DNA from: Bacillota bacterium
Lineage (GTDB): Bacteria > Bacillota > Limnochordia > Darwinibacteriales > Darwinibacteriaceae
Direction: 5' to 3'
NCBI GenBank assembly: GCA_012521295.1
Contig: JAAYMS010000057.1
Location: forward strand, 1 to 32,248
DNA length: 32,248 nucleotides
The notes below the pieces were generated by a model that searched no databases, was not told where the DNA came from, and saw nothing but the letters and a program-made list of their open reading frames with translations. The position numbers and the translations under genes are program-made. This document shows positions 20,763 through 22,622 of this stretch, piece by piece (within the stretch, counting starts at the first letter, position 1; every line of letters starts with the position of its first letter).

Positions 20763-22352
20763 CTAGCTTCTCTGTGATTTGATCTTTCTAATCTGAGCCA
20801 CGACTTCGCGAAACTGGCGGTCTAATTCGTCAGTATCGTCATCTGGGCCGGACATCGAAAGCCTGCTTGTCAAGTCGGCTAAGCGATTCTCCAGAACCAG
20901 CAGGCTTTCCTCCGTTGGCTGCTCTACAGCCTTCCGCCTCTTCTGAAACTCAGCATAGCTTCCTGCAAAACTTGAGATCTTACGTTCCTCGATTGATAAA
21001 ATCTGATTGGCTGTCTGACTGATGAATCGCCGGTCGTGGGAAGCAAACAGAACCGTACCCCCATACTCCTTTATAACCTCAGCCAACGCCTCTATAGAAT
21101 CAATATCTAGGTAATTGGTAGGCTCATCAAGGACCAGGAAGTTAATGTCTTGGAGAAATACCTTGGCAAAGGCACACTTCACTCGTTCGCCACCGCTGAG
21201 CAAACTCACCTTCTTGTGGACATCATCTCCGCGGAAGAGAAGACGGCCCAGCACCAACCGCACAAGCTGACGGGGATAGACTGCGGTCTCTTCGACATTC
21301 TCCAGCACAGTCTTGTCCCCGTCCAGAATGTCCAGGGTCTGGCTGAAGTAACCCAGCTTCACACTACCGGCGATTTCGATCTCAGGTGCTCCTTGCACAA
21401 TTTTCTTCAGTAGAGTTGTTTTTCCACTCCCATTGGGCCCGATCAAAGCAGCTTTGTCGCCCCGCCGAATGGTGAAGTTCACGCCCTGCAGCAGCTGTTT
21501 GCCAGGAAAGGCTATAGATAGGCTTTCTACCCGCAAGACGATTTGGTTGTAAACTGGACTCGGGGGCTGCAGATCAATTGACGGTCCTTTCATCTCAAAG
21601 GGCTTTTCCTTTACCTCGAGGCGCTCCAACCGGGATTTTAAGGACTTTGCGCCCTGCTCCACCTTAGCTTTACGTGTTCTAGCTGTACCTTTATGCAGGC
21701 GCGCTTCTGAAACACCCATTCGAGATGGTGCTTTCTTGGTAGAGCGAGCCTTCGATTCTTGAGTGCGAATTGCCTCTTCGAGATGCCTACGTTCTTTGAG
21801 GTAAGATTGATACTCGGCCCAGGCCGCTTCAAGCTGCTGTTCACGCATCTGATAGTAAGCAGTGTAGTTTCCCGAGTATACCTTTAGCTGGCTGCGCTCC
21901 AACTCCCAAATCTGAGTACAAACGCTGTCCAGGAGCTCACGGTCGTGAGAAACAACCAAGACCGCTCCACGAAAAGACTGCAGATCCCGCTCTAGCTTCT
22001 CGATACCTTGAATATCTAAGTTGGTAGTGGGCTCATCGAGCACGAGCAGGTGAGGGCTGTCAGCAAAAAGACGCGCGAGCCTCTCGCGAGTTCGCTCTCC
22101 ACCACTCAAGTAACCTCGATTTCCTCCGTCTTCCACCAGCTGAGATAGATACCCGGCCCGACCGTAGGTCTCAATCAAGCCCTCCTCCGGCGCGAGTTCT
22201 CCAACCAGAATCCTCAACAGCGTCGTCTTACCTTCACCATTTCTGCCTACCAGGCCAATACGGTCAGCCATGTAGATATCGATGGCTGGGATATCTATGA
22301 TGCAGCGTGAACCAAAAAAGTGTCGTAAATCTCGTGCTTTGACTAAGAGCAT
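20763..22352 (-). CDS. ABC-F family ATPase (antibiotic-resistance/ribosome-protection type candidate)
   Basis: Two ABC domains (GRNGEGKTTLL / LSGGERTRERLARLFADSPHLLVLDEPTTNLD and GPNGSGKTTLLKK / LSGGERVKCAFAKVFLQDINFLVLDEPTNYLD), a basic interdomain linker and no TM segment. Start at ATG 22352 (MLLVKARDLRHFFG) after SD GGAGGGG. Confidence 0.92.
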   Translation of the reverse strand: MLLVKARDLRHFFGSRCIIDIPAIDIYMADRIGLVGRNGEGKTTLLRILVGELAPEEGLIETYGRAGYLSQLVEDGGNRGYLSGGERTRERLARLFADSPHLLVLDEPTTNLDIQGIEKLERDLQSFRGAVLVVSHDRELLDSVCTQIWELERSQLKVYSGNYTAYYQMREQQLEAAWAEYQSYLKERRHLEEAIRTQESKARSTKKAPSRMGVSEARLHKGTARTRKAKVEQGAKSLKSRLERLEVKEKPFEMKGPSIDLQPPSPVYNQIVLRVESLSIAFPGKQLLQGVNFTIRRGDKAALIGPNGSGKTTLLKKIVQGAPEIEIAGSVKLGYFSQTLDILDGDKTVLENVEETAVYPRQLVRLVLGRLLFRGDDVHKKVSLLSGGERVKCAFAKVFLQDINFLVLDEPTNYLDIDSIEALAEVIKEYGGTVLFASHDRRFISQTANQILSIEERKISSFAGSYAEFQKRRKAVEQPTEESLLVLENRLADLTSRLSMSGPDDDTDELDRQFREVVAQIRKIKSQRS

Positions 22353-22381
22353 AAAAAAACCCCTCCAGACGTCTAGAGAGG
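22353..22381 (-). terminator. Intrinsic terminator/attenuator in the ABC-F 5' leader, overlapping the SD
   Basis: The - strand reads CCTCTCTAG-ACGT-CTGGAGGGG-TTTTTTT-ATG: 9 continuous base pairs (2 G-U), tetraloop, 7-nt U-tract ending at the start codon. Confidence 0.8.
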
Positions 22382-22457
22382 ATTGTGGCGCAAGCAAACC
22401 TTCCCTCCGAAAGGGCGGGTCAGGTAGTATAAACATGTTATTCGGCGGCCAGCAATC

Positions 22458-22502
22458 CTAACTAGAACAGACTTGCATACAAAAGAGCACCACGGGCCTC
22501 AT
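22458..22502 (-). CDS. Candidate 14-aa leader peptide (uORF) in the ABC-F leader
   Basis: The - strand reads ATG AGG CCC GTG GTG CTC TTT TGT ATG CAA GTC TGT TCT AGT TAG = MRPVVLFCMQVCSS. The upstream SD is weak (CATCCGGG-ATG). Confidence 0.35.
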   Translation of the reverse strand: MRPVVLFCMQVCSS

Positions 22503-22593
22503 CCCGGATGCTAATGCACTGTTTTGGCTTGTTCTAATTGGACTTAGAGCCGCATTCCCTTCACACTTACCCTTTCTCGAGTTGTTTACATTT

Positions 22594-22622
22594 ATCATAC
22601 ATCAATAGACGGACACTATCAA
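22594..22622 (-). promoter_or_regulatory. Sigma-A-type promoter for the ABC-F transcript
   Basis: The - strand reads TTGATA-N17-TATGAT (-35 at 22617-22622, -10 at 22594-22599), each hexamer 5/6 to consensus with ideal spacing. Confidence 0.75.

Follow-up and report, generated by a model that had tools for sequence, protein, structure and literature searches.

An ABC-F gene of an uncultured Bacillota bacterium is, with high probability, preceded by a cplR-type attenuator that works through the ribosome, and the protein it encodes is by sequence a resistance-type ABC-F of its own lineage. The window, that is the whole stretch of DNA analysed here (32,248 nt), carries on its minus strand all the elements reported in the first-pass annotation, which had described a promoter, a leader of about 235 nt and a terminator hairpin containing the Shine-Dalgarno sequence (SD) of the gene. 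That annotation overlooked the sensing half of the switch, namely a short upstream ORF (uORF) and the segments P1 and P2 (Table 1).

Table 1. Features of the ABC-F locus, in order of transcription.
Feature	Positions	Strand	Basis or remark
Sigma-70-type promoter TTGATA-N17-TATGAT	22594..22622	-	sequence; TTGATA at 22622, TATGAT ends at 22594
SD box AGAAAGGG of the uORF	22570..22577	-	conserved in leader-bearing relatives of the class and, slightly varied, in most others
uORF ATG CGG CTC TAA (Met-Arg-Leu), three codons	22544..22555	-	sequence and relatives
P1 (TCCAATTAGAAC), 5' arm of anti-antiterminator	22531..22542	-	begins directly after the uORF stop
P2 (GTTCTAGTTAGGATTGCTGGCCGCC)	22444..22468	-	partner of P1 (anti-antiterminator) or of P3 (antiterminator)
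Small hairpin (CCCTTTCGGAGGG) with T-rich stretch after it	22398..22415	-	separates P2 from P3; putative pause hairpin
P3 (GCGCCACAATCCTCTCTAGA)	22372..22391	-	3' arm of antiterminator and 5' arm of terminator
P4 TCTGGAGGGG with U7 tract	22353..22369	-	terminator 3' arm carrying the SD of the ABC-F gene; P4 itself at 22369-22360
ABC-F ATPase, 529 aa, ribosomal-protection type	20763..22352	-	NCBIfam profiles, nearest PDB chains

The ABC-F gene and its leader

The promoter matches the consensus at 10 of 12 positions and places the predicted transcription start near 22587, giving a leader of 235 nt up to 22353. A promoter scan alone performed at chance level (6 found, 4.0 ± 2.0 expected); a -10/-35 pair is readable at an equal distance from the upstream SD box in the relatives L004, L005, L007 and L008. 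The upstream gene, encoding an aldo-keto reductase, ends in a terminator of its own (22676-22652), so that the leader is a separate transcript; for the same reason the leader hairpin was ruled out as the aldo-keto reductase terminator.

The hairpin in front of the ABC-F gene reads CCTCTCTAG-ACGT-CTGGAGGGG-TTTTTTT-ATG, with 9 base pairs and about -13 kcal/mol. Sequence and folding thus agree with the earlier description, in which the 3' arm of the terminator holds the SD and the U-tract adjoins the ATG at 22352. A terminator scan alone gave results near the background rate. Across the 2.3-Mb genome, 10 sites match the loose pattern GGAGG-T5-ATG, versus 2 in a reversed control; among the eight such sites that were folded, the ABC-F site is the single one with a perfect hairpin whose 3' arm is formed by the SD and adjoins the U-tract. 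The fused SD/terminator/ATG motif exceeds chance. A longer ORF starting from an in-frame ATG at 22436 was considered and ruled out because a relative 84% identical has an in-frame TAG 24 nt upstream of the ATG, which sets the ABC-F start at 22352.

Further upstream, the exact SD/uORF box (AGAAAGGGTAAG..ATG) is unique in the genome, a search with it having revealed no additional copy of the leader. The uORF could also begin at an in-frame GTG (22564), giving MKGMRL; this GTG is retained in L003, L004 and L005. The distance between the uORF SD and its ATG (about 14-17 nt) is longer than usual and counts against a switch.

The protein groups, by its sequence, with Vga/CplR-like proteins. It passes the NCBIfam profile for ribosomal-protection ABC-F proteins (NF000355, 483.6 bits for a cut-off of 380), in line with the factor type suggested at first pass, and both ATPase sites are intact by eye. 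The best model, Vga_all (NF000170), scores 581.6 bits, below its cut-off of 725, and the CplR model (NF043038) scores 510, below 780, so that the protein falls outside both families as these models delimit them; the relatives from M. mangenotii (L026) and C. polyendosporum (L037) score 787 and 884 with NF043038. The nearest PDB chains are 7nhl, a lincosamide-streptogramin A resistance protein, and 7nhn (Lmo0919). A tree of 64 relatives places the protein in a well-supported clade with L003, L004 and L005; the second ABC-F of the genome (L016) is distant. The Listeria cornellensis protein (L087; strain FSL F6-0969) was left out of the tree; in this record its vgaL-like frame, from 2507, is shifted about 190 codons in, which reflects either a sequencing error or a broken gene. 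One in-frame TAG each was also seen in two ABC-F genes of another clade (L123 and L125; two genomes of one genus, g146, family f88).

Alternative pairings and their maintenance in relatives

Three mutually exclusive pairings can form in the leader: the anti-antiterminator P1:P2, the antiterminator P2:P3 and the terminator P3:P4, which hides the SD. The uORF has its own SD near the 5' end of the leader and overlaps the anti-antiterminator, its codons forming part of the base of the P1:P2 stem. This is the organisation of uORF-controlled ARE-ABCF attenuators of the rli53/vmlR/cplR kind, and here too the gene controlled is of the ribosomal-protection type (NF000355; 7nhl, 7nhn). The small hairpin between P2 and P3 resembles SL-2 of vmlR and, by that likeness, may act as a pause hairpin.

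The class of the source genome was searched for ABC-F proteins (73 genomes, E <= 1e-80), and a match was found in 14 genomes, the window's own included. The same layout is present in the nine class relatives that fall in the same broad protein group and whose upstream region is readable, and their uORFs encode MRL (L003 and L004), MK (L005), MKN (L007), MFN (L008), MRR (L009 and L011), MKNS (L010) and MFI (L013). Compared with the 84%-identical relative, 96 of 99 columns are identical in the switch segments (two of the three departing columns are gap columns placed inside P1), as against 103 of 147 in the remaining leader. P2 is identical at 24 of 24 positions in the nearest relative. ABC-F proteins of another clade, including one from the window's own taxonomic family (L014), are preceded by a plain SD without such a hairpin; the leader tracks the ABC-F clade.

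GTDB species genomes and a phylum sample were also scanned, and leaders of the same design were found in Clostridium, Metaclostridioides, Paenibacillus, Ectobacillus, Enterococcus, Listeria cornellensis and uncultured Bacillota. In total 48 fused leaders were collected, a count biased by the search pattern, which for most of them required T3 after the SD, and in which L090 and perhaps L038 are doubtful as fused forms. A tract of U5 or longer is present in nearly all relatives. A uORF of 2-5 codons stands at the corresponding place in 42/48 leaders, immediately followed by P1; its residues vary freely (R, K, F, I, D, Y), the peptides being MRL, MK, MKN, MFN, MRR, MKNS, MRI, MFI, MDN, MKM and others.

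The antiterminator and the anti-antiterminator duplexes are both stronger than in dinucleotide-shuffled leaders (mean z of -1.8 each, 48 leaders). Loop lengths being too variable between relatives for a covariance model, co-change was evaluated by a partner-swap test on 42 diverse Bacillota leaders. The uORF stop served to anchor P1, and P2 was picked solely by its pairing with P1, which keeps the test of P2:P3 non-circular. The mean P2:P3 energy was -18.3 kcal/mol with the leader's own partner versus -11.4 kcal/mol with swapped partners; none of 5000 permutations reached the own mean and none fell below -14.0 kcal/mol. The test ignores relatedness, and close leaders make swaps look better, not worse. 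By this test, the P2:P3 pairing is maintained by co-change across the 42 leaders.

The effect of a ribosome was modelled crudely, as a 28-nt block to pairing placed on the uORF in an RNA made up to the terminator loop, before P4. With the block in place, the antiterminator became more probable, rising on average from 0.15 to 0.60 (42 leaders) and in the window leader from 0.12 to 0.62, versus 0.14 for a control 28-nt block placed elsewhere. The probability was raised in 35 of the 42 leaders. A minority did not switch in silico (L023, L026, L041, L106, L111, L112 and others), some of them probably through poor anchoring. With the whole leader at equilibrium, the block lowered the terminator probability from 0.81 to 0.56 on average and from 0.73 to 0.54 in the window, a weaker effect that counts against the switch at full length and indicates that it must act during transcription.

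Several relatives depart from the common form. In four leaders (L100, L102, L111 and L026), the U-tract of the same attenuator is followed by what appears to be a TTG main start codon. Two Bacillaceae (L043 and L090) have an apparent split form like that of vmlR, with a terminator and then a separate SD region about 20-110 nt upstream of the ABC-F start, and L034 has an SD-hiding hairpin without a U-tract. Fused, split and translation-only forms seem to coexist within the group.

In seven other relatives (L019, L101, L106, L107, L108, L140 and L141), ATT stands in place of the main ATG. They belong to family f35 (six genomes, three genera) and to the MAG RUG14133 and share the context GGAGGGG-T5/6-ATT-TTA, the ATT lying 5-6 nt after GGAGGGG. 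In 4/5 of the loci inspected, the interval between the ATT and the in-frame stop closest upstream (15-60 nt) contains no ATG, GTG, TTG or CTG, and the sole in-frame ATG upstream in L107 lies at a distance of 189 nt; in one f35 genome (G368) the main start is ATG. This pattern suggests that an AUU start is conserved, perhaps as a further layer of damping. No ABC-F gene with an AUU start was described in the literature searched.

Proposed mechanism and competing explanations

Drug-stalled ribosomes very probably turn the ABC-F gene on; we infer termination, stalling, inducers and resistance function from what is known of the family. In the absence of drug, ribosomes would translate the three-codon uORF and leave, P1 would pair with P2, and P3 would remain free for P4, so that transcription would stop at the U-tract before the start codon. 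In any read-through RNA the SD would stay hidden in P3:P4. A drug that halts the ribosome on the uORF start would cause it to cover the base of P1:P2; P2:P3 could then form in place of the terminator, RNA polymerase would proceed and the SD would be free. The switch would reset once the ABC-F protein had cleared the drug from the ribosome. The inducers are most likely pleuromutilins, lincosamides and streptogramin A.

Such attenuation, in which one hairpin blocks both transcription and translation as the first-pass annotation had proposed, is the best reading: the full set of elements is kept in relatives and cplR provides a precedent. The hairpin could instead merely hide the SD of a constitutively transcribed RNA, the U-tract serving as a spacer. 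A U-tract mutant of C. difficile cplR remains tightly drug-regulated (PMC10201436) and one relative, L034, has the SD hairpin alone, both as such a translation-only attenuator would predict. However, the hairpin is GC-rich and runs straight into an uninterrupted U7 (at least U5 in nearly all relatives), which makes it a canonical terminator; the tract is unneeded for SD spacing, and the cplR RNA ends at the start codon. This explanation is improbable. Still less credible is a constitutive gene with a hairpin present by chance or as a relic and a fortuitous short ORF: the near-background promoter and terminator scans would allow it, but it is contradicted by the conservation of exactly the switch segments and by the co-change seen in the swap test, and we give it hardly any weight.

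A signal other than a drug might also be sensed, either a metabolite, through a riboswitch, or an amino-acid shortage, through the Arg and Leu codons of the uORF. The window leader matched nothing relevant in Rfam at gathering or relaxed thresholds, and at gathering score neither the leaders tried from relatives nor that of Listeria cornellensis matched a family, which leaves some room for such a sensor. However, the uORF residues vary freely, in keeping with a stall at initiation or immediately afterwards and not with one that depends on a single amino acid; comparison of the relatives' leaders revealed no conserved aptamer-like core outside the switch segments, and the gene is of the ribosomal-protection type. 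Sensing of a non-drug signal is thus very unlikely.

Beyond drug-induced attenuation as such, the leader might belong to one ancient RNA family, absent from Rfam and spread across much of Bacillota, in which the uORF residues set the inducers and Met-Arg-Leu would extend sensing to macrolides. The Met-Arg-Leu peptide resembles the macrolide arrest motif of the R-L-R type. We regard this broader proposal as speculative and rather unlikely.

Comparison with known leaders

The earlier annotation had drawn its parallels with vmlR of B. subtilis and lmo0919 of Listeria. The parallel stands for the attenuation logic and can be made sharper, cplR being the exact match in design. The vmlR leader comprises a uORF (MIN) with the SD AGAAGGG, an anti-antiterminator, an antiterminator, a terminator and a pause hairpin, while the SD of the vmlR gene lies downstream of the terminator in a hairpin of its own, SL-4 (PMC9226507), whereas in the window leader one hairpin does both. 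The rli53/lmo0919 (VgaL) leader of Listeria is attenuated, about 207 nt long and responsive to lincomycin (PMC8079631); it shares with the window leader a three-amino-acid ORF and the anti-antiterminator/antiterminator logic and differs in sequence. The corresponding leader of Listeria cornellensis has, as in the window, the SD in the terminator and a U7 adjoining the ATG.

In C. difficile, the cplR leader (about 212 nt) carries in a 5' hairpin a uORF (MRI; consensus MR[I/M]) that is needed for induction, an alternative antiterminator forms, the terminator stem sequesters the main SD and, when no drug is present, transcripts stop at the start codon; transcription and translation attenuation were shown experimentally to act jointly (PMC10201436). 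The window leader has in common with it the three-codon uORF, the alternative antiterminator, the SD within the terminator stem and the U-tract at the start codon. It differs in host lineage, in the sequence of the arms and in the uORF (MRL versus MRI), and the protein differs from CplR in forming its own well-supported clade and in scoring below the CplR cut-off (510 of 780 bits).

These results place uORF-controlled attenuators of ribosome-protection genes far beyond the Bacilli and Clostridia studied so far, in uncultured lineages, with a three-way RNA pairing that is preserved despite sequence change. The 42 leaders with diverse uORFs (MRL, MK, MFN, MRR, MKNS and others) are also material for relating the uORF peptide to the inducer spectrum, a question raised for cplR (PMC10201436). 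With its main SD within the terminator stem and its U-tract abutting the start codon, the window leader is a clear further example of the cplR sub-type and not a new kind of leader.
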